A program made the translations under genes and the position numbers. The notes beneath the pieces are model-generated. The model was not told the DNA's origin. It saw only the letters and a program-made list of their open reading frames with translations, and ran no database searches. A stretch of 50,602 nt of DNA from a virus: the IMG/VR virus record IMGVR_UViG_3300033145_003412, positions 1 to 50,602 of that record. One strand, given 5' to 3'. Below are positions 16,175 to 49,574 of this stretch, piece after piece (within the stretch, counting starts at the first letter, position 1; the number at the start of each line of letters is the position of its first letter).

Positions 16175-17122
16175 TTAATATTTCCATCCCCTTTCCTCTG
16201 GCATAATGGTTCGATGATTACCCTTCAAAATAGCTTCCGCATATATCGAGTCTGTATCCAATCCCATCAAAGTCCGGCCAACTATCCAATAATGTGCTAA
16301 AAAACGCTTCATTACAATACGCAAAGCATGTCCATGTCTATGGCTTAGCTTAGTGTTTTTCCACATACATTCTATCAATTTTCCTTGCGTATTTCTTGAC
16401 ATCACAAGCTCTTCGGATATTTCCTTTGCCTGTTTTGCCCTGTCATAATCGACTCGATACGGGGATTTCTTATTTTTCATTTGTGACTCGGCCATTGTAT
16501 ATAATATTGTTCGTAAAGTCTTGTTTCCACCTCCAGCAACATTTTTCTCATAACGTAAATGACTTGGTTTATCCAAACCAGTATAGGCCCAAAGGCTTGA
16601 CGCATGTCTCGCTTTAGTAAGATCAATATAAACGAGACAATGGGCAACCGTTATTGGCCCAACCGAAACAACCGATAATGCCGCATTTGCCAAAGGATCG
16701 TCCATATCTTTTAGGACCTTTTCGATTGCTTTGTCTTTGTTTTTAATTTCCTTAGATATGCCGGGCAAATGGCCTTTTAAAAACAATACGGTTTCTGAGT
16801 CTGAATGATCAGTCCTTCTTTTGTACGCAAGAAGTTGATTGTTAATTTTGCTATACAATTTCATCAACTGTCCCCGATCATCTACTAAGGTTTTTAATCC
16901 CTCTAATTCTTCTGTCCGCATACGATATGTTCCATGCCTTTTTTGGTGCTCAATAGGGTCCACGGCTCGATAGTTTTCCAGCACATATACGCCCCCTTTT
17001 GCTTTAGGGGTTTTACGGTCAGTGTCAAACAACGAGGGGCTAGCAGGAAGTGGTTTTCCCGACAACGCACAACTACCGTTCTGCTCTTCAATTTTGATTT
17101 TCTTCAGTTCTTCTTTTGACAT
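16175..17122 (-). CDS. tasH: TasH-like protein: HNH-like domain plus Nop/IS110-C-like domain
   Basis: 315 residues. Residues 13-64 look like an HNH nuclease: C18, D33-T-D35-R36, KAKGG (40-44), N50, H59 and H63; the usual first catalytic His is read as Arg36. A coiled coil follows (about 70-140). Residues 145-285 match the C-terminal domain of IS110-family transposases, which is related to the Nop domain of box C/D RNPs: LSVVSVGPITVAHCLVYID, then LWAYTGLDKP, GGGNKTLRTILYTMAESQM and SPYRVDYDRAK. No DEDD/RuvC domain of a real IS110 transposase is present. TIGR-type arrays adjoin both ends, so this is best read as a TIGR-Tas effector with an HNH module (TasH). It would use array-derived RNAs to find DNA. 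ATG with AAAAGGAG upstream. Confidence 0.88.
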   Translation of the reverse strand: MSKEELKKIKIEEQNGSCALSGKPLPASPSLFDTDRKTPKAKGGVYVLENYRAVDPIEHQKRHGTYRMRTEELEGLKTLVDDRGQLMKLYSKINNQLLAYKRRTDHSDSETVLFLKGHLPGISKEIKNKDKAIEKVLKDMDDPLANAALSVVSVGPITVAHCLVYIDLTKARHASSLWAYTGLDKPSHLRYEKNVAGGGNKTLRTILYTMAESQMKNKKSPYRVDYDRAKQAKEISEELVMSRNTQGKLIECMWKNTKLSHRHGHALRIVMKRFLAHYWIVGRTLMGLDTDSIYAEAILKGNHRTIMPEERGWKY

Positions 17123-17157
17123 CGTTTTCTCCTTTTAATTAAACGTTTTTAAGCTAT

Positions 17158-17472
17158 GGGCTTCTTTTGGATAATGACTCGCTTACAACACATGGGCTTC
17201 TTCACATAGATGGCTCGCTTCGCTATGATGGTTTTCTTCCGAACTTTGGCTTGCTTAATGATAATAGTTTTCTTATTTGATATGGCTCGCTTATCTTTTT
17301 GGGGTTTCTTCTTGCATTTGGCTCGCTTAATACCAATGGATTTCTTTTGAAAGTTGGCTCGCTTAATGGCTGTGGTTTTATTGTCCTTTCTGGCTCGCTT
17401 CAGATTCATGGGTTTCTTATCTTGTCTGGCTCGCTTAGTATCCGTGGTTTTCTTGACTTTAATGGCTCATTA
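17158..17472 (-). repeat. TIGR-like guide array 2 (nine 36-nt units)
   Basis: Same architecture as array 1 with more drift. The first segment (GGGTTTCTT and variants GGGCTTCTT, GGTTTTCTT, AGTTTTCTT, GGATTTCTT, GGTTTTATT) starts at 17158 and every 36 bases to 17446. The second (GGCTCGCTT, with GACTCGCTT, GGCTTGCTT and terminal GGCTCATTA) starts 18 bases after each. All spacers are 9 nt, and all but one end in T. It lies between the HTH gene and tas, so it would be transcribed ahead of tas in the leftward operon. The open frames reading K-R-A-x3-K-K-x4 across it arise because 36 is a multiple of 3. Confidence 0.9.
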
Positions 17473-22315: not shown

Positions 22316-23227
22316 TTAATCTACTACAATTTCATAGCAAGCAAAAACAAGCCTTGCCTTACCAGCATTATAAAATGGCTCCCTCATACACTCGTAAGTA
22401 AGCGCCGCTCTTGCATCTTCTTTCCCTTGCCTAAGAACTACCGAAGCCATATAACCAAGGACAGCAAGCCTGATTGATTCTGGATTATCTTTTATCCCTC
22501 TTAATATTTTCGCAATTTTACTCCAAGGCTCTTTTTTAATAAGCGCTTGGCAAAGATTAATAATTTGCGGATCGTTTTCAGTAACAGCCGGTTTCCATTC
22601 TTTTTGGTCTGTTTCTGATAAATCTATTACTTGGTCAAGATATACCAAAGCCTGTCTTGGACAGCCACTTGCCGCTTCAATAATTTTCTCTGTTACTTTA
22701 TCCGGTATTCCAACTTCTTCTTCTTTGAGCACGTATGAAATTAAAAAACTAATTTCTTTATCTGATAACGAATCCACCTTAAAAATCGAACATCTATTTC
22801 TGACGGTTTTTAGTAACGTTTCTGGGTTCGTTGTGCAAAGTAAAAAATAAACATGATTAGGCGGCTCTTCAAGAATTTTAAGAATTGAGTTCTGAAAGTT
22901 TTTAGTCATTGCGTGGCATTCATCAAGGAGATAAATTTTCGTATCTCCGTGCCACGGATATAATGAAGCTGAAGAAATTATTTCTCTAGCAGTAGCTATC
23001 CCTGTCTCATTTCCAACATTAATTTCAGTAAAATCTTCGTCTGCACATTTTAACCAATTTTGACATATCCTTGCTAAAGTTGTCTTGCCTGTTCCTGCCG
23101 GTCCTGTAAATAAGAAAGCATGGGGTTTATCTTCTCTCTCTAAACAGCTTTTGAGAGAAGTAACCGTTGAACGATTACCAACAAATTCATCAAAATTTCT
23201 TGGACGGTAATCAATAGAAAATGGCAT
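22316..23227 (-). CDS. Sliding-clamp loader ATPase (DnaX/RFC-small-subunit-like)
   Basis: 303 residues. YRPRNFDEFVGN is the classical clamp-loader start. Walker A is GPAGTGKT (42-49), Walker B is LLDECH (100-105), and TTNPETLLKTVRNRC holds the sensor 1 Asn and the SRC-like Arg finger (NRC). It resembles RFC-small or DnaX lacking the tau C-terminus, as in T4 gp44. It would load the phage beta clamp (27886..28890) for the phage DnaE. It lies next to the polymerase and methyltransferase genes. Confidence 0.87.
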   Translation of the reverse strand: MPFSIDYRPRNFDEFVGNRSTVTSLKSCLEREDKPHAFLFTGPAGTGKTTLARICQNWLKCADEDFTEINVGNETGIATAREIISSASLYPWHGDTKIYLLDECHAMTKNFQNSILKILEEPPNHVYFLLCTTNPETLLKTVRNRCSIFKVDSLSDKEISFLISYVLKEEEVGIPDKVTEKIIEAASGCPRQALVYLDQVIDLSETDQKEWKPAVTENDPQIINLCQALIKKEPWSKIAKILRGIKDNPESIRLAVLGYMASVVLRQGKEDARAALTYECMREPFYNAGKARLVFACYEIVVD

Positions 23228-23233
23228 GTTATT

Positions 23234-23274
23234 CTCCTTTTAAAATAAACTTGGTTTTTTAAGTGTTTTATCTA
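23234..23274 (-). repeat. Repeat shared by the ends of two methyltransferase genes, copy 1
   Basis: This 41-base stretch occurs again at 29485-29525 with one mismatch. It covers the last codons (LKKPSLF plus preceding DKT), the stop and the ribosome site of the next gene. Direct repeats of this quality are candidate recombination joints. Confidence 0.85.
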
Positions 23275-23806
23275 CTTCGTCCCCCCACGTATCCCATCCC
23301 TCGGTACGCTGGCGAGAAAACAGTTCAATACGAGATAAATCACCAACCAATTCTATAATTTTATCCCTTATAATATCTGGCTTTCTCGAATGCTCTCTTA
23401 ATGGCGATACAACTAATTGGGAGACAGATTTACTAGTCCTTTTTATTTCCCCTTTCGTTGCTAATAAACATATTTCAGGATTTGATCTTGTCCAATTCCC
23501 ACCACCAAAATGATATTTGATTTTTCTTGTTTTAACCCATGTAAAAGCAACAGTTTTATATATAAAACCCCAAGACTCTATACATTTAAGCGCAAAAGGT
23601 ATTTTTGAATCCATAACCCATAAAAACAAAATGCAATTATTACTAGATATTGCTTTAATGGGTAAATTAATAATATCTATATCAAGCATTGTATTATATA
23701 GTTTTAACTTAGCTTCTGTGCTTAAATTTTTTCTGTTTTTAAAATTAAACATCCAAGGAGGGTCTGCGTAAATAATTTGATATTTTTTATCAGGGAAGGG
23801 TATCAT
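23240..23806 (-). CDS. MT-A70-family DNA adenine methyltransferase
   Basis: 188 residues. YQIIYADPPWMFNF places the DPPW catalytic motif at 15-18, the hallmark of MT-A70-type N6-adenine methyltransferases. The middle segments CILFLWVMDSKIPFALKCIE and SNPEICLLATKGEIKR, and the late REHSRKPDIIRDKIIELVGD and GWDTWGDEV, follow the phage/Ime4-like pattern. It probably methylates phage DNA against host restriction. ATG overlaps the DnaE stop (ATGA). The C-terminal tail DKTLKKPSLF is identical to that of the unrelated methyltransferase 29491..30237; its SLF end resembles a beta-clamp-binding motif. Confidence 0.87.
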   Translation of the reverse strand: MIPFPDKKYQIIYADPPWMFNFKNRKNLSTEAKLKLYNTMLDIDIINLPIKAISSNNCILFLWVMDSKIPFALKCIESWGFIYKTVAFTWVKTRKIKYHFGGGNWTRSNPEICLLATKGEIKRTSKSVSQLVVSPLREHSRKPDIIRDKIIELVGDLSRIELFSRQRTEGWDTWGDEVDKTLKKPSLF

Positions 23807-26800
23807 ATCAATTCCAAAACTTGTTTTGAAAAAGCCTCTATTCCATCTGAAAACAATTCTTTATTTCTCTCCGATCTTTGTCTTAAAACAGCCGCCGGGT
23901 GGACGCACCAAAAAACATGAGCTTTGACTTTTGGAATCCATCCATGCTTCCCGGACAAGTCCATAATACCTCCATCTCTATCGGTCAAAGCCTTAAGAGT
24001 AGTATTACCAAGCGCTAAAATAATCCTTGGTTCGAGTATTCTAATTTCTTCTTCAAGCCATTTCCAACAGTCAAGAATATGTTGACTGTTCGGAGTCTCT
24101 AAACTTCCAGGATAACATTTACAAACATTTGTCACATGGAAAATTTTTCTTGATAACTCAAATCTTGAAAGCTCGTCCCATAATAATTCACCGGCTTTCC
24201 CAATAAAAGAAATGCCCTTTTCATCTTCTTTAGTTCCTGGTGCTTCACCAATTATCATTGCATTATATATTCCTTTACTTGGAAAAACAGGACTTCTGCA
24301 TTGTTTTCTTAACTCGCAACCGGAACAATTTTTCAATTCAGGATTAGAAAACCTTGCCCGTTTAATACTTGGCAACAATATCTTTTCTCGTATTTCTGGA
24401 AAAGTAAAACCAAATAATCCATAGGCTTCTTCTGGTAAAGAACTGTTTTTATCAAAGGCTTCAACCTGATTCATTATTTTACCAATCTTACCTTTGAAAT
24501 CAGGTAATGAATCTTGCAATTCAAAAAATCCTGTTTTCTTAACCTTTATTTCTCCTGAACAAAGTCTTGCAGTTTTTTCACCAATTCCTTTTATTTCTAC
24601 GAACGGGCAATAAAGATAATCATCTTTTGCTTTCCATTTGAAACTATCTGAAACACCATATTTAGGCGATTTAATTTCTAATCCAATCCTATCAGCTTCA
24701 TCAATCAAAGCCTGTTTATTCTGTTCTTGTCCATGTGTAAGGCTTGCACAAAGAAATTCAGACGGATAATGAATTTTAAGATACGAAGTCCAATAAGATA
24801 TTGTAGCATATTCTACGGCGTGGCTATTGCAAGTAACAATATTTTGGTCTGTAACAAAGTTATGATAAGGGGGGGCCATTGTAATGTTCCAGGTATCAAT
24901 TTCACCAATTTTTTTTATAGATTCGACTCGGATTAAAGATACAGGATACCCTTTTTGCCCTTGTTTTGTTCTGCCATTATTATAATGTATTTTTTTATGA
25001 CAAGAGACGCATAATTTTTGAAGATTTGTAAAGTCATTATTATTTCTATTCCCATCTACATGATGTACTTCTATTCTTGTTTTGTTTTGGCCGCATAATT
25101 TACATATATTAGGAGTTTCATTTTTAAAATTTCTATATCTTATATAAGACCCGTCGATGTATCCTGGATTTTTTTCTCCTGTTGGGAAACCAAAATGAGA
25201 GCCGTATTTTTTACCTTTAGTAATTTGCTTTTTACTTGTTAGGCTATACTTCTTATTTGTTTTTTCATAATCCCCGCAAAAATAAATAGAATCATCCGTT
25301 GTTAAATCAGAAAGTTTTTGTTCTCCTTTTTGAGTTAGGAATTTATGATTTTTTGTGATTTCAATCCAAGCACCATTTTCTAAAGTTAGTCTATATACCT
25401 TTCGTTTTCCCTCAGGTTGAATGTCCTTAATAATATTTTTTCTAATTCTTTTATCATTGAATAAAGATAAGCCATATCCATAATGTTTTTGAAAATTAAA
25501 TTTTACTTTTAAATCCAAATGGCCTGTCCTTCGAGCATATTCAATGTCGTTTTTAATCATATACATTTCTCGAACTGAAAAATTATTTTTATGATGATTG
25601 ACAATACTTCTTTTTAAAATAGTGTCTCCAGAAACGCACCTGTTAAAACTATAATGAGCATGACTTTGAAGCATTTCCCAAAATTCGTTTGCTTCCCGAT
25701 CATTAAAAATTCTTGTTTTCCTACATCCTTTAATAAACTCAACATGATATTTTGCAAAATTATCAGAACTTTTTTTCTTGCTAATCACCTTACGAATTTT
25801 ATCTGAAGTTGTATAATCAAGTCCGGCCACTCTGCTAATCACCTGCATAATCTGTTCTTGAAATAAAATTATACCTTGAGTGCTTCTTGTTATTTCTTCA
25901 TAAATTTCATGGTGACGTTCTTTCTTTTGCCTTCCATGTTTAATATTTATATAATCTTTCGCCATACCTGAATTAAGTGGTCCTGGTCTGGCTAAGGCTA
26001 ACACGTCAATAATATCTTTGAAGCTGTCTATCCCTACGTCTTCACACATTCTTTGAGATAAATAAGACTGCATTTGGAATACGCCGACTGTCCGTCCTTC
26101 TGATAACTCTTTAAAAACTTTTTCATCATTCAAAGGAATAGAATCTAATAAATCTAAATCCCCTATTAATTGTAATGTTTCTGAAATAATCGATAGCGTA
26201 TTCAGACCAAGAACATCAAGTTTTATTAAACCTACGTATTCGCAGTCGGCCATTTCCCAATTAATCGTTCTGCTATTGTTTCTATTTAATAAGACGGCTC
26301 TTTTGTTAATATTCCCAGAAGAAATTATAATAGCCGCCGGGTGTTGCGAAACATGCCTAGTCTGCCCTTCAAGTTTTATACAATGATTAATTATTTTAGG
26401 ATATTTTCTTTTAAATGCCTTTCCTTCTTCTGTATCATTACAAGAATTTAAAACAACGTCTTTATCATATTCAGCGGCATTTATTGACTTGGCAAAAGTA
26501 TCAATATCTTTATATGGAATATCAAAAACACGGCCTACATCTCGTATAACAGCCCTTGCTTGCATCCTGCCAAAAGTTGAGATACCCGCTACATTTTCTT
26601 TCCCGTAAACTTCTTCAATATGCTTTCTGATTAAAACTCTTTTTGAATCCTCAAAATCTAAATCAATATCCGGGAAATCTACTCTATCTTTTGCAATAAA
26701 CCTTTCAAATAATAAGTTATATTTAATAGGATCAACTTTTGTTATCCCAAGAATATAAGCTACAAGAGAACCCCCGGCAGAACCGCGACCAGGCCCAATC

Positions 26801-27864
26801 ATTATTTTATTACTATTGCACCAACTAACAAGTTCATAGACAATTAAAAAATACGGTGCGAATTTCTTCTCGATAATTAAATCAACTTCTTTTTTTAATC
26901 TACATTGATATTCATCAATTTGAAATTCATTTATCTTTTTAAACTGCTCCCATTTAGAATAAACCAAAGTAGAGAATTGTTTTTTTGGAGATAACGAACT
27001 ATCTATTTCATTAATTTTCGGAACCGGCAAAGAAATATCTTTTTTAGGGATTCTAAATTCAGAACATCTTTTAGCAATCTTAATCGTATTTCTCATTGCC
27101 ATTACAACTTGGCTATGAGAAAAATCTCCTTGTCTTTTAAATGCCTCGATCATTTCTTTATCTGTTCTTAAATAAAGCCCATCTATTGAAAATTTAAATC
27201 TTTTTTCATCATTCCATTTCGCTTTGGTTTGAATTGCCAATAAAACTTCTTGTGTTTCAGCATCGTCTTCATTTATGTAATGACAATCGTTTGTAGCCAC
27301 CATTGGAATGTCTGTTATTCTTTTAAGCCGTTCATGAAAAAGTTTTTGTTCTTTTAGGACGTGAGGCATTATTTCAAGAAAGATGTTATAAGGTTTTTCT
27401 TTTTGTAGCTGGTAAAGTAAATCTTCTCCACCTGGTAAATTTAAAAACGAGCTTGCACAGGCGGTCATAGCAATTAGGCCTCCATTAGACCAATACTTTA
27501 ATAAAGTCTCATAGTCTATTCTTGGCCTATAATAATGTCCCTCAAGATTTGCTATGCTTAACATTTGAAGTAAACTTTCCCAGCCGGTTTGATTTTCTAC
27601 CAATAAAACTATATGGCCTCTTTTCTCTCCTTTCGTTTTAATGTCTCTTTTAGGAACTATATAAGCCTCACATCCTAAAACTGGTTTAATGTTTTGTTTA
27701 TCGCATTCTTTTTGAAACTGAATAAGACCATCTACGTTTCCGTGGTCTGTGCAAGCTAAATATTCAAAGCCTAATTCTTTGGCTCTTTTACAATAAGCCT
27801 CAGCCGAACCGAAGCCGTCTAATATGGATTTGTCAGAATGAAGGTGGAGGTGGCAAAAGTTCAT
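23803..27864 (-). CDS. dnaE: DNA polymerase III alpha (DnaE) with intein and C-terminal uracil-DNA glycosylase
   Basis: 1353 residues. An N-terminal PHP domain (HLHLHSDKS at 5-13, CTDHGN at 38-43) keeps its metal ligands, so PHP proofreading is possible; no DnaQ-like exonuclease was seen in the window. The palm holds GPGRGSAGGS (about 356-365) and PDIDLDFED (about 396-404). LARPGPLNSGMAKDY follows. A 271-residue intein (743-1013) splits the conserved SFNR/SHAVEYA motif. After the DnaE helix-hairpin-helix region, about 1170-1353 is a family 4 uracil-DNA glycosylase: Fe-S cysteines CSGCELRKQC, motif GEAPGTKED, GKAGELL and HPAAVLR. This joins polymerase and uracil excision in one chain. It is flanked by clamp and clamp-loader genes. 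Confidence 0.9.
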   Translation of the reverse strand: MNFCHLHLHSDKSILDGFGSAEAYCKRAKELGFEYLACTDHGNVDGLIQFQKECDKQNIKPVLGCEAYIVPKRDIKTKGEKRGHIVLLVENQTGWESLLQMLSIANLEGHYYRPRIDYETLLKYWSNGGLIAMTACASSFLNLPGGEDLLYQLQKEKPYNIFLEIMPHVLKEQKLFHERLKRITDIPMVATNDCHYINEDDAETQEVLLAIQTKAKWNDEKRFKFSIDGLYLRTDKEMIEAFKRQGDFSHSQVVMAMRNTIKIAKRCSEFRIPKKDISLPVPKINEIDSSLSPKKQFSTLVYSKWEQFKKINEFQIDEYQCRLKKEVDLIIEKKFAPYFLIVYELVSWCNSNKIMIGPGRGSAGGSLVAYILGITKVDPIKYNLLFERFIAKDRVDFPDIDLDFEDSKRVLIRKHIEEVYGKENVAGISTFGRMQARAVIRDVGRVFDIPYKDIDTFAKSINAAEYDKDVVLNSCNDTEEGKAFKRKYPKIINHCIKLEGQTRHVSQHPAAIIISSGNINKRAVLLNRNNSRTINWEMADCEYVGLIKLDVLGLNTLSIISETLQLIGDLDLLDSIPLNDEKVFKELSEGRTVGVFQMQSYLSQRMCEDVGIDSFKDIIDVLALARPGPLNSGMAKDYINIKHGRQKKERHHEIYEEITRSTQGIILFQEQIMQVISRVAGLDYTTSDKIRKVISKKKSSDNFAKYHVEFIKGCRKTRIFNDREANEFWEMLQSHAHYSFNRCVSGDTILKRSIVNHHKNNFSVREMYMIKNDIEYARRTGHLDLKVKFNFQKHYGYGLSLFNDKRIRKNIIKDIQPEGKRKVYRLTLENGAWIEITKNHKFLTQKGEQKLSDLTTDDSIYFCGDYEKTNKKYSLTSKKQITKGKKYGSHFGFPTGEKNPGYIDGSYIRYRNFKNETPNICKLCGQNKTRIEVHHVDGNRNNNDFTNLQKLCVSCHKKIHYNNGRTKQGQKGYPVSLIRVESIKKIGEIDTWNITMAPPYHNFVTDQNIVTCNSHAVEYATISYWTSYLKIHYPSEFLCASLTHGQEQNKQALIDEADRIGLEIKSPKYGVSDSFKWKAKDDYLYCPFVEIKGIGEKTARLCSGEIKVKKTGFFELQDSLPDFKGKIGKIMNQVEAFDKNSSLPEEAYGLFGFTFPEIREKILLPSIKRARFSNPELKNCSGCELRKQCRSPVFPSKGIYNAMIIGEAPGTKEDEKGISFIGKAGELLWDELSRFELSRKIFHVTNVCKCYPGSLETPNSQHILDCWKWLEEEIRILEPRIILALGNTTLKALTDRDGGIMDLSGKHGWIPKVKAHVFWCVHPAAVLRQRSERNKELFSDGIEAFSKQVLELI
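24826..25638 (-). other. DnaE intein with HNH homing endonuclease
   Basis: Residues 743-1013 of the polymerase. Block A starts at Cys (CVSGDT). Block B is GAWIEITKNHKFLT. An HNH endonuclease domain (CKLCG, EVHHVDGNRNNN, CVSCHKK) sits inside, and block F is PPYHNFVT. It ends VTCN before Ser, so the penultimate residue is Cys instead of the usual His. Excision would rejoin SFNR and SHAVEYA, a known DnaE intein site. Confidence 0.88.
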
Positions 27865-27885: not shown

Positions 27886-28890
27886 TTACTCACTAGCGAC
27901 AATAACTAAAATAATAACAGAATTATCAGTCAAGAATTTTATTTTAGATTCACCTAAAATAGCCTTATTAGTTTCCTTCAAAACTTTAGATATAGAACTA
28001 ATACTTATTCTAAAAGAAAAATCATCTCCTTCCCATCCACTTTCAAAACTTTCTATTATTTCTCCATAGTCATTACCGCTCCTAATCTCCATATTACCCT
28101 TACTAAAAGAAAAATAAACTTGATCCTCTTCTGAAAAAATATCAGCACGATTTAATGAACTAAGAAGTCCTTCTGGAAAAACAACTTCAAAAGTCGCCTC
28201 TTCTTTCTTTTCAAAATTAATAATTCTATCAACATCAGGATATTTACCTAAACTTCTTTGACTAATAATAGAAAAGTTCTCTCCATGGAAACCTACTGAT
28301 TCTTCTGAAATTGAAATATCATCAATGACCAAATTCAATATTTTATCAAGTTTCGTTGCCGGAACTAAAAAATTATAATCCTCAGAAGAGACAGGAATAT
28401 TAACTCTTTTTATAAAATGCCCACTTGCCCCCTCGATATATTCAGACGTAACATGAACCGAAGTCAAAGCCTCTCTGTTCTCTAATAGACTAATAGCTGG
28501 CAAACATTGTTTAAGAGCATCTTTTATCTCGTCTGTCATAGCAATTGTTTTTTCTTTAGAAGTCTCAAGCTCTGGAAATTCATTATTTTCTTTTTTGATT
28601 TTTGATTTTGTTCTCCCGCATTTTATTTTTAGATAGTTCTCTTGATCTTCAAATTCAATCTCGTTATCAAGGCTTAACATTCCTTCCAAAATCTTTTTCA
28701 AAGGAGCAAAAGGAATCATTCCTTTAATATCTGTTTCAATATTTACTTCGCAAAATAAAGAATCTCCATTAAACGTCCTTATTCCTTCTTCATCAAAAAA
28801 ACAATAAGTGGTAGCATAAAAAGTTGATTGTGCAATTCCAATCTCAACAATCTTTAAAGCATCAAGTATCTCATTTACTTTCTCGTTCAT
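27886..28890 (-). CDS. dnaN: DNA polymerase III beta sliding clamp-like protein
   Basis: 334 residues, near the usual DnaN length (about 366). The repeated beta-alpha-beta pattern is visible (VEIGIAQSTFYATTYCFFDE and the segments around FLVPATKLDKILNLV and FPEGLLSSLNRADIF). Sequence conservation is low, so the call relies on fold pattern and its place directly upstream of dnaE and near the clamp loader. It would ring-load on DNA for DnaE. The C-terminal MPMRL-like end of host clamps is not present; it ends ILVIVASE. Confidence 0.68.
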   Translation of the reverse strand: MNEKVNEILDALKIVEIGIAQSTFYATTYCFFDEEGIRTFNGDSLFCEVNIETDIKGMIPFAPLKKILEGMLSLDNEIEFEDQENYLKIKCGRTKSKIKKENNEFPELETSKEKTIAMTDEIKDALKQCLPAISLLENREALTSVHVTSEYIEGASGHFIKRVNIPVSSEDYNFLVPATKLDKILNLVIDDISISEESVGFHGENFSIISQRSLGKYPDVDRIINFEKKEEATFEVVFPEGLLSSLNRADIFSEEDQVYFSFSKGNMEIRSGNDYGEIIESFESGWEGDDFSFRISISSISKVLKETNKAILGESKIKFLTDNSVIILVIVASE

Positions 28891-29484: not shown

Positions 29485-29525
29485 CTCCTTTTAAAATAAA
29501 CTTGGTTTTTTAAGTGTTTTGTCTA
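29485..29525 (-). repeat. Repeat shared by the ends of two methyltransferase genes, copy 2
   Basis: Near-identical to 23234-23274 (one mismatch). It covers the C-terminal DKTLKKPSLF codons of 29491..30237 and the following ribosome site. Confidence 0.85.
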
Positions 29526-30237
29526 TTCTTTTTTTAGCTATCTCGAAATATTTTTTATCTTTTTCTATACCAATAAAATTACGGTTTAAGTTTTTACAAG
29601 CAACTCCAGTCGTACCACTTCCGAAACAAAAGTCTAAAACTGTTTCGTTTTCATTAGTGTATGTTTTTATTAAATATTCCATTAATTTAACCGGCTTTTG
29701 TGTTGGGTGGAGTTTATCCTTATCTCGCTTAAATATCTGCCACGAAAGAGGATGCCTGTCGCCTGATTTATTAATTGTTATTACTAAATCTTTCCTATTG
29801 TAAACATCAGGCCTATTATAAATATCAGACGGCCCCCCTTTTTTTTGTCTATATGGCTTGCCTTTAGTTTTTTGTGGGTTATAAGTTGGTAGTTTTTGAT
29901 AGAATACAAGAATATCCTCATGCGCCTTAAGAGGCATTCTGTTAGCATTATAAAACCCTACACCTTTTGGTTTAACCCATTCTAAATCATATCTAAACAT
30001 TTTGATATTGCTCATAACTAAAGCACTTGTAAATGGTTGACTAGCCGTCATTACTATCGCCCCATTAGGCTTAATAACCCGTTTCAAATGTTTCCACATA
30101 GGCTCAAGTGGAATTATTGAATCCCAAGAACAATTAGTGATTTCGTAAGGCGGATCAGCGCAAACCATATCTATTGACCCATCTGGTATTTCAGACATTA
30201 ATTCAAGACAGTCACCATGTAGTAGTTTAATTTTCAT
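29491..30237 (-). CDS. Beta-class DNA N4/N6 methyltransferase
   Basis: 248 residues. The catalytic motif DPPY (28-31, in CADPPYEITNCSWD) lies near the N-terminus, and the SAM-binding motif FGSGTTG (205-211, in DFCFGSGTTGVACKNLNR) lies near the C-terminus, the motif order of beta-class enzymes. VKPKGVGFYNANRMPLKAHE and HPTQKPVKLMEYLIKTYTNE are also typical (the P-T-Q-K-P helix). It likely protects phage DNA from host restriction; no cognate nuclease is nearby. The tail DKTLKKPSLF is shared with the MT-A70 enzyme. Driven by promoter cassette D. Confidence 0.88.
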   Translation of the reverse strand: MKIKLLHGDCLELMSEIPDGSIDMVCADPPYEITNCSWDSIIPLEPMWKHLKRVIKPNGAIVMTASQPFTSALVMSNIKMFRYDLEWVKPKGVGFYNANRMPLKAHEDILVFYQKLPTYNPQKTKGKPYRQKKGGPSDIYNRPDVYNRKDLVITINKSGDRHPLSWQIFKRDKDKLHPTQKPVKLMEYLIKTYTNENETVLDFCFGSGTTGVACKNLNRNFIGIEKDKKYFEIAKKRIDKTLKKPSLF

Positions 30238-47686: not shown

Positions 47687-49048
47687 ATGGATTTAGCTTC
47701 TAATATTCTGCCTCCGATTAGTCTTGTTGATAAGATTATAGCAGAGAAAAGCCTACATGAGTTTATTAAACAGGCATGGCCGACTGTATTGCCTTCGGTC
47801 CCTTTTGTTGATGGTTGGCATATAGGGGCTATCTGTGAGCATTTACAAGCCACTATGCCAAGGCCAATATCTTATGGACAAGATAGTAAAGACAATAGAA
47901 TTGTAACTGAATATGGGCCGGGGGAAATAACAAGATTAGTTATCAATATTCCTTTTAGACATACTAAAAGCCTAGTCCTTGCAGTGATGTTTCCGGCCTG
48001 GGCCTGGACCCAATTACCTTGGCTTGGATTTTTGTTTGCTTCTTATGCTGAGAGATTGAGTATAAGGGATTCTATGAAAACTAGACGCCTTGTAAAATCA
48101 AACTGGTATCAAGGTAATTGGGCTGATAAATTTGAAATGGTTGATGACCAGGATCAAAAGATTAAATTTGAAAATAAGAAGGGAGGATATAGAATAGCTA
48201 CTTCTGTTGGCGGAGTTGGAACAGGAGAAGGAGGAGACTATGTTTGCTTGACTGGCGATGTGAAAATAAAGACTGACCAGGGCAATATTGAAATAGAGAA
48301 AATCGTTGAAGAAAATTTACTTGTAGAGGTTTTAACTTATAACCATGATAACAATAAGTTAGAATATAAAAATATAGAGGTTTATGAGAAAAGCCCTGTA
48401 AGAGATTTAATAGAGATTGAATTAGAAAACGGGACAAAACTTTGTTGTACTGAAGACCATCCTATTTATGTTTTTAGAGATAAAGAAAAAAGTTATATCT
48501 CTGCAAATCAATTAGAAGTAGGAAATCAATTATTTACGACTAAAAAAACTGTGAAAATAAAAAATATTAAAAAGGTTCAGAAACAAGATAAATTTGTATA
48601 TAATCTTGCAATAGCAGATAATAAAAATTATTTCGCTAATGGTATCCAAGTTCATAATTGCGCTGACGATCCGCATAACATTTCAGATATAGAATCAGAT
48701 GTGAAACGTAATTCTACAATTTTGTGGTGGGATGAATCTATGGCTTCACGTTTCAATAATCCTTCTTATGGTGTTAAAATTATTATTATGCAGAGGACGC
48801 ATGATGATGATTTGAGTGGGCATTCATTAGCAAAAGATGCTGGTTATGAGCATTTATGTCTGCCTGCAAGGTTTGAAGTTGACCATCCTACTCTTTCGAG
48901 AACTTCATTAAATTTTGTCGATCCAAGAAAAGAAGATGGAGAGTTACTTTGGCCTCAAATGTTTAATGAAAAAGGTATGGATGATCTTGAAAAAGAATTG
49001 AATAGTCCTTATGCTGTGGCAGGCCAACTTCAAGATACCGGAAAATGA
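47687..49048 (+). CDS. terL: Large terminase, ATPase part, with mini-intein
   Basis: 453 residues. Walker A variant NIPFRHTKS (87-95) is the P-x-R-H-T-K-S form of phage TerL. The Walker B region GGDYV/CADDPHN is split by a 138-residue intein (187-324). YGVKIIIMQRTHDDDLSG (motif III/C region) and ELNSPYAVAGQLQ close the ATPase. The frame then ends in DTGK and stop, while the nuclease domain continues in the +1 frame at 49011..49574. Removal of the intein and a frame change are both needed for a standard TerL. It powers DNA packaging into the prohead. Confidence 0.88.
   Translation: MDLASNILPPISLVDKIIAEKSLHEFIKQAWPTVLPSVPFVDGWHIGAICEHLQATMPRPISYGQDSKDNRIVTEYGPGEITRLVINIPFRHTKSLVLAVMFPAWAWTQLPWLGFLFASYAERLSIRDSMKTRRLVKSNWYQGNWADKFEMVDDQDQKIKFENKKGGYRIATSVGGVGTGEGGDYVCLTGDVKIKTDQGNIEIEKIVEENLLVEVLTYNHDNNKLEYKNIEVYEKSPVRDLIEIELENGTKLCCTEDHPIYVFRDKEKSYISANQLEVGNQLFTTKKTVKIKNIKKVQKQDKFVYNLAIADNKNYFANGIQVHNCADDPHNISDIESDVKRNSTILWWDESMASRFNNPSYGVKIIIMQRTHDDDLSGHSLAKDAGYEHLCLPARFEVDHPTLSRTSLNFVDPRKEDGELLWPQMFNEKGMDDLEKELNSPYAVAGQLQDTGK
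48245..48658 (+). other. TerL mini-intein, no endonuclease
   Basis: 138 residues (187-324). It starts CLTGDVKIKTD (block A); block B is CTEDHPIYVF; block F is YFANGIQVHN and it ends HN before Cys. No homing endonuclease domain fits in this length. It sits exactly at the Walker B acidic pair (before ADDPHN), so splicing would be required for ATPase activity. Confidence 0.9.
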
Positions 49049-49574
49049 ACAATTGCCAGATGTTGATTATGATACGATTGTAGCCACTATTCGTTATTGG
49101 GATAAAGCCGGTACAGAGGATGGTGGAGCAAGAACAGCTGGAGTTAAAATGCACTATATGGCTTCAGGCAGATATATAATTGAGGATTGTGAAGTAGGGC
49201 AGTGGGGTTATGCAAAAAGAGAGGCCATGATTAAGACTTGTGCAGAATTGGATGGAGCTTCTTGTTTAGCTTTTGTCGAGCAAGAACCAGGTTCCGGAGG
49301 GAAAGAATCTGCCGAGAGAACTATTGACGATACTCTTGATGGCTATGCAGCCTTTACTGATAAAGTAACTGGATCAAAGATTATCAGGGCAGAGCATTAT
49401 GCGGTTCAAGTTGAAAAGGGAAATATTTATTTAATAAAAGGAGAATGGAATAAAAAATTCTTAGATGAGCATAAAAGATTTTTGACAAGTAAATTTAAAG
49501 ACCATGTTGACGCTTCGACTGGAGCTTTCAATAATTTGGCTGATTATAGATCAAAAGGAATCAGGGTGATATAA
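49011..49574 (+). CDS. terL: Large terminase, C-terminal nuclease domain (frame-shifted)
   Basis: 187 residues, overlapping the ATPase frame by 38 bases in the +1 frame. VATIRYWDKAGTEDGGARTA then SCLAFVEQEPGSGGKESAER are the RNase-H-fold nuclease motifs of TerL (first Asp and following acidic residues). It probably belongs to the same protein via programmed frameshifting, unless the frame break is a sequence error. The canonical linker (around R-P-x-P-x-x-G) seems shortened. Stop overlaps the portal start. Confidence 0.85.
   Translation: MLWQANFKIPENEQLPDVDYDTIVATIRYWDKAGTEDGGARTAGVKMHYMASGRYIIEDCEVGQWGYAKREAMIKTCAELDGASCLAFVEQEPGSGGKESAERTIDDTLDGYAAFTDKVTGSKIIRAEHYAVQVEKGNIYLIKGEWNKKFLDEHKRFLTSKFKDHVDASTGAFNNLADYRSKGIRVI

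Follow-up and report, generated by a model that had tools for sequence, protein, structure and literature searches.

Why should a replicative DNA polymerase carry a uracil-DNA glycosylase (UDG) on its own chain, and could such a domain still excise uracil? The question is raised by the DnaE gene of an environmental phage, whose whole record of 50602 bases is called the window here. Profile searches identified UvsX, primase, DnaB-like helicase, clamp, clamp loader and terminase genes in the window, and an Rfam search of it returned no RNA families. The features discussed below are collected in Table 1.

Table 1. Positions of the polymerase gene, its domains and motifs, and its replication neighbours in the window. 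E41, G42 and similar single positions refer to Tth UDGa.
Feature	Position	Strand	Evidence or remark
IMG/VR record IMGVR_UViG_3300033145_003412	whole record, 50602 bases		environmental phage
DnaE-UDG fusion gene	23803..27864	-	1353 aa precursor; 1082 aa without intein
PHP domain, residues 5-144	27433..27852	-	PF02811, E 1.2e-35
DNA_pol3_alpha catalytic domain, residues 308-553	26206..26943	-	PF07733, E 3.1e-80
Fingers domain, residues 556-717	25714..26199	-	PF17657, E 2.2e-43
HNH intein, C743-N1013, 271 aa	24826..25638	-	PF14890 1.6e-9; TIGR01445 1.8e-6; HNH matches
Fingers end and helix-hairpin-helix region, ~1014-1142	24439..24825	-	alignments, AF2 model
Family 4 UDG-like domain, ~1176-1353	23806..24339	-	PF03167; Foldseek vs 1ui1
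C1180 and C1183	24316..24327	-	
Motif 1, GEAPGTKE	24226..24249	-	E1207 = E41, A1208 = G42, E1213 = E47
Motif 3, VTNVCKC	24115..24135	-	N1246 = N80, uracil recognition
C1250	24115-24117	-	
C1266	24067-24069	-	
Motif 2, HPAAVLR	23881..23901	-	H1322 = H155, leaving-group histidine
Phage clamp loader (DnaX-like)	22316..23227	-	TIGR02397 1.6e-53, below cut-off; phrog_5846 5e-61
Phage sliding clamp (DnaN-like), adjoins polymerase	27886..28890	-	TIGR00663 3.6e-19, below cut-off; phrog_947 5.9e-36

Domain architecture of the window polymerase

The window protein contains the whole core of a C-family polymerase (DnaE), i.e. PHP, Pol3, fingers and helix-hairpin-helix (HhH) regions, and scores 713 bits with the curated DnaE model TIGR00594, the cut-off of which is 434. 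The PHP motifs HLHLH, TDHGN, GCEAY, RGHIV and TNDCHY were all found, and the catalytic aspartate motifs are PDIDLDF at residues 398-404 and KLDVLGL at 548. An OB fold and a tau-binding C-terminal domain (CTD) are typical of the C terminus of DnaE, though not universal. Neither of them follows the HhH region of the window protein, judging from alignments and model, and Pfam detected no OB fold in it, whereas OB-type phage DnaEs do match. What follows the HhH region had been described in a first-pass annotation as a UDG4-like domain, and this was borne out: the domain lies in frame at the C terminus of the same chain, Pfam PF03167 covers residues 1202-1341 (E 1.5e-27) and the predicted fold is that of a family 4 UDG. 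Judging from sequence and model, the window protein is a phage replicative DnaE in which a family 4 UDG occupies the place of the missing OB fold and tau-binding domain.

The NCBIfam models NF040953 (type-4 UDG; E 1e-29, 103 bits) and TIGR00758 (E 8e-29, 100.5 bits) score below their whole-protein cut-offs of 250 and 125.3, respectively, so the label UDG4-like domain is used. With phmmer the closest PDB entries were the family 4 UDGs 1l9g/1vk2, 4zbx and 1ui0 (E ~1e-18 to 1e-19); UdgX was slightly weaker, and 9qhs was the sole polymerase match. An AlphaFold2 model of residues 1014-1353, based on 35 aligned sequences, reached a pLDDT of 91.3, and its UDG part was superposed by Foldseek on Thermus UDGa (1ui1) with a target-normalised TM of 0.85 at 1.6 A. 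Moreover, the full-length model of one relative (L034; pLDDT 90.2, pTM 0.78) matches the DnaE structures 2hpi and 3e0d and, separately, 1ui1 and other UDG4 structures over ~185 columns. As modelled, the window domain is a family 4 UDG fold, and the record has no other UDG. UdgX shares the fold and motif B with it, and is defined by GEQPG and by an R-loop, KRRIH, with the crosslinking His109 (PMC10359453); UdgX identity was nevertheless rejected, since the window has GEAPG instead and the stretch from C1250 to C1266 contains no insertion, i.e. no KRRIH R-loop.

Active site and inteins

Tth UDGa (1ui0/1ui1), a stand-alone enzyme, shares the fold and 33% identity over 153 columns with the window UDG. 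In the alignment C1180, C1183, C1250 and C1266 correspond to its C13, C16, C84 and C100, i.e. all four predicted Fe-S ligands of a family 4 UDG are present in the window. Both family 4 motifs, GE(A/G)PG and HPxx(L/V), occur (as GEAPG and HPAAVLR), and the alanine at the G42 position is normal within the family. In Tth UDGa the pocket is formed by E41, G42, E47, F54, N80 and H155, of which H155 is dominant, and N89 positions water (PMC5387724). The residues of the uracil pocket (E47, F54, N80) are E1213, F1220, shortly downstream of motif 1, and N1246 in the window, and E41 and H155 are also kept. Conversely, the water-positioning site of motif 3, N89, is occupied by leucine (L1255). N89 is the least damaging of the pocket positions tested in Tth UDGa, N89A keeping about a tenth of k2 in Table 1 of that study and being described in its text as an almost 6-fold loss (PMC5387724); as the cost is only ~6- to 10-fold, the loss of N89 seems tolerable. 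The active site looks intact in sequence and model, and the domain is apparently functional.

The first-pass annotation had called the UDG4 domain complete, which holds for the fold, the Fe-S cysteines and E41, E47, F54, N80 and H155 but not for the catalytic N89. The structure prediction that it had proposed as a check yielded a UDG fold with the active-site residues bar N89, and hence did not refute the claim. The motifs GEAPGTKED (1206-1214), GKAGELL (1222-1228) and HPAAVLR (1322-1328) are where it had put them, although its residue count runs through an intein of 271 residues that it did not mention.

The limits of this intein, ahead of S1014, were set by alignment with a homologue without intein (L006); Pfam places the splicing domain at residues 805-1011, and the extein junction reads HYSFNR / SHAVEY. 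The intein ends in TCN, i.e. a cysteine replaces the usual penultimate histidine. The FNR/S junction is also occupied by an intein in L095, and in L112 an intein lies a few residues upstream. In a further relative (L069; 5986-10416, + strand) an HNH intein lies inside the fused UDG itself, directly after GEAPG of motif 1. The large terminase ORF of the window (47687-49048, + strand) also has an intein-like (HINT) insertion at about residues 188-325, and the nuclease part of the terminase is in a second, overlapping ORF (49011-49574).

Distribution and decay of the fused glycosylase

The fusion was found by tblastn and IMG/VR searches in dozens of IMG/VR contigs, and it is also present in isolate phages (the nickie group, hairong, RHEph10, B1VFA, SSU5 and ANB28); phage records with a DnaE match numbered 1363. 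Searches for DnaE fusions in phages, as suggested in the first-pass annotation, recover the layout from many independent contigs and isolates, which means that it is no assembly accident. The idea that read-through or faulty assembly had merged two genes is refuted by the recurrence of the same single-ORF layout, in dozens of contigs as well as in the genomes of isolates, and has practically no probability left. The suggestion that such a chain is rare did not hold, since the fusion recurs in phages and the layout was published in 2013-14. A single-protein IMG/VR search with the C-terminal piece gave no confirmed matches, and alignments were needed to recover the relatives. When GTDB was scanned with C-terminal patterns, the sole match was an ordinary DnaE without UDG in a gammaproteobacterial MAG.

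The additional DnaE of some Yersinia pestis and Salmonella enterica strains has a UDG in place of the OB fold and CTD (Timinskas et al., PMC3919608), and the RHEph10 record is already annotated 'uracil-DNA glycosylase-like', so the architecture as such was known. By Pfam domain order the window protein has the same layout as this DnaEX-UDG, a PHP-Pol3-HhH core with PF03167 replacing OB and CTD. SSU5, which was used in place of the Y. pestis plasmid copies, also has it, and SSU5-type UDGs group with the window-type ones in the tree. The literature searched gives the fusion one survey sentence. New here is an extensive clade of phages in which the active site of the fused UDG seems functional, as judged from the window and dozens of related phage sequences, whereas the fused UDGs of the isolate phages examined are decayed: SSU5, Nican01, hairong, RHEph10, B1VFA and ANB28 have lost the catalytic residues, and most of these phages the Fe-S cysteines too. 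Some DnaE relatives without UDG, about 900 residues long, stop directly after the HhH region (L075, L082, L084, L093). In three of the fusions (L089, L031, L106) HhH and UDG are separated by a further ~100 residues that look OB-like by eye but have no Pfam OB match.

A UDG4-type domain on the polymerase chain is also known from phage family A polymerases (SPO1, Shbh1, PaBG, ctfzr933, vir526 and phiLo, PDB 9qhs, for which the literature search found no describing publication). Like the DnaE fusions they include intact and degenerate examples, but they belong to another polymerase family, the UDG is N-terminal and their UDGs lie on separate branches of the tree.

We sorted 52 distinct DnaE-fused UDGs by retention of N80 and H155, which gave 38 intact and 14 degenerate sequences; the full conservation of these two residues in the intact class is therefore by definition, and the intact share is no census, as the IMG/VR set was retrieved by similarity to window-like members. 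All 14 degenerate domains lack N80 and 13 lack H155 too, but the domain is still kept. Outside the sorting residues, the intact class retains E47 in 38/38, F54 in 35/38 and each Fe-S cysteine in 37-38 of 38. E41 is found in 34 of the 38, and the other four have Q with D at position 42. GQDPG, with a family 1 UNG-like QD doublet, replaces GEAPG in L055, L061, L062, L072 and L074. In Tth UDGa the QD swap leaves substantial activity (k2/Km 4.5e4 vs 2.4e5; PMC5387724), and such doublets are what selection on catalysis would be expected to yield. N89 is kept in only 2 of the 38 intact fused UDGs as against 11 of 13 PolA-fused and stand-alone ones (Fisher p 1e-7, uncorrected for relatedness); S or T stands at this site in 29 of the 38.

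In a quick DnaE tree (80 rows, LG+G4, unrooted, no bootstrap) the presence of UDG changes at least 8 times and the intact or degenerate state at least 5 times, with well-supported branches forcing at least 4 changes for the degenerate class. In the careful UDG tree a single branch (97/88) separates all 54 fused rows from the rest, and the starred branches imply at least 5 changes for the degenerate class. The active site thus appears to have decayed in at least 4-5 separate events while the domain was retained. All fused UDGs group together, as they would after a single fusion with repeated later decay or loss; both trees being unrooted, this history is the simplest reading and not proven. Most pairs are saturated for dN/dS and few are usable; the values were 0.099 (L061/L062) and 0.126 (L046/L078) for intact pairs, and 0.064 (L118/L121), 0.18 (L014/L023) and 0.59 (L021/L024) for decayed ones. 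These values indicate purifying selection on the UDG domain in most testable pairs.

Such a comparative series, with an apparently active clade, a natural UNG-like QD doublet, repeated decay or loss and an intein in a UDG motif, could show which contribution of a replicase-borne glycosylase domain is catalytic and which is structural, and could test whether uracil excision can be coupled to synthesis on one polymerase chain.

Candidate roles and genomic context

With moderate confidence we favour a dual role, in which the fused UDG, placed where the OB fold normally lies, would hold DNA and, in the window's clade, also excise uracil. Keeping the DNA close to the polymerase would be its constant role, and would explain why the domain survives in relatives that have lost catalysis; as 14 of them keep it with a wrecked active site, excision cannot be the sole role across the family. 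In the window's clade the domain would remove uracil, arising from cytosine deamination or dUMP incorporation, from phage DNA while tethered to the replicase. The conserved pocket of the window and of most of the 37 other intact fused sequences is consistent with uracil removal. Almost all of the clade lacks N89, so the domain probably excises uracil more slowly than a stand-alone UDG4 does, as opposed to not at all. Against the dual role it can be said that so few of the intact fused UDGs keep N89, that the leucine at this site of the window cannot position water, that 14 relatives retain the domain after losing N80, and that excision on a single-stranded template would make AP sites ahead of the polymerase.

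Alternatively, the fused UDG might do no more than bind DNA or confer processivity in place of the OB fold, what is conserved of its active site being a historical remnant. This is what the recurrent decay with retention of the domain would suggest, and purifying selection in two of the decayed pairs (L118/L121 and L014/L023, the third being higher) fits as well. A processivity role has been suggested for phage polymerase UDG domains (Kazlauskas and Venclovas 2011, as cited in PMC5135824), and the poxvirus UDG is a processivity factor (PMC10253040). In the Vaccinia D4 UDG-A20-E9 holoenzyme a UDG is likewise physically linked to the viral replicase, but D4 is a separate protein bridged by A20 and the polymerase is unrelated to DnaE. 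Phages with a decayed UDG (SSU5, Nican01, RHEph10, ANB28, L118) have no recognisable clamp or clamp loader, whereas the window and almost every member of its clade have a loader match and about half have a clamp match; all these matches are below curated cut-offs and the records may be incomplete, so the absences are weak evidence. That the window and most of its clade have their own loader, and about half a recognisable clamp, speaks against a mere module, as do the uracil pocket and Fe-S site kept in the window and 37 relatives over deep divergence and the compensated QD doublets, which point to selection on catalysis. We hold a purely structural role to be unlikely, if less so than the reading that follows.

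It is improbable, in our estimate, that the domain acts as a uracil sensor which recognises uracil but cleaves poorly, and stalls or repositions the polymerase before the uracil is copied, an effect like that which archaeal family B polymerases achieve with their uracil read-ahead pocket. The pattern of losses would suit it, as E41, E47, F54, N80 and H155 are kept while 36 of the 38 have lost precisely the residue that positions water, N89. So would the location of the UDG at the OB-fold position, as known DnaE structures have their OB fold close to the single-stranded template. Nevertheless, the N89A loss in Tth UDGa is small (PMC5387724), a water could still be held by the S or T that 29 of the 38 have instead of N89, and the QD variants resemble restored hydrolysis. 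We are equally doubtful of a built-in uracil checkpoint, in which the loss of N89 would tune a UDG4 to bind template uracil tightly and cut it slowly, catalysis being repeatedly discarded in DNA-holding relatives.

As to the genes around the dual role that we favour, the fused UDG is the one and only UDG in each of the 23 out of 26 virus records that have any. The first-pass annotation had suggested uracil removal at the fork or, in a genome that tolerates uracil, a regulatory role, and both are hypothetical. A dUTPase was not found in the 26 records, the window included, and genes that make or protect uracil-DNA were not recognised among the window proteins searched, though the records may be incomplete. 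A candidate clamp-binding motif near EAYGLF was rejected, as it aligns with a conserved YFxF segment and not with QxxLF.

Other genes of the window, all on the - strand, are of separate interest. Two methyltransferase genes, one of the MT-A70 type, are found at 23240-23806 and 29491-30237, and both proteins terminate in KTLKKPSLF. A protein with an IS110-type transposase domain (16175-17122) has an N-terminal stretch that weakly matches endonuclease VII, an 86-aa ORF (17149-17409) consists of repeated Lys/Arg-rich units, and a small release-factor-like protein with an RF-1 domain is encoded at 1521-1856.
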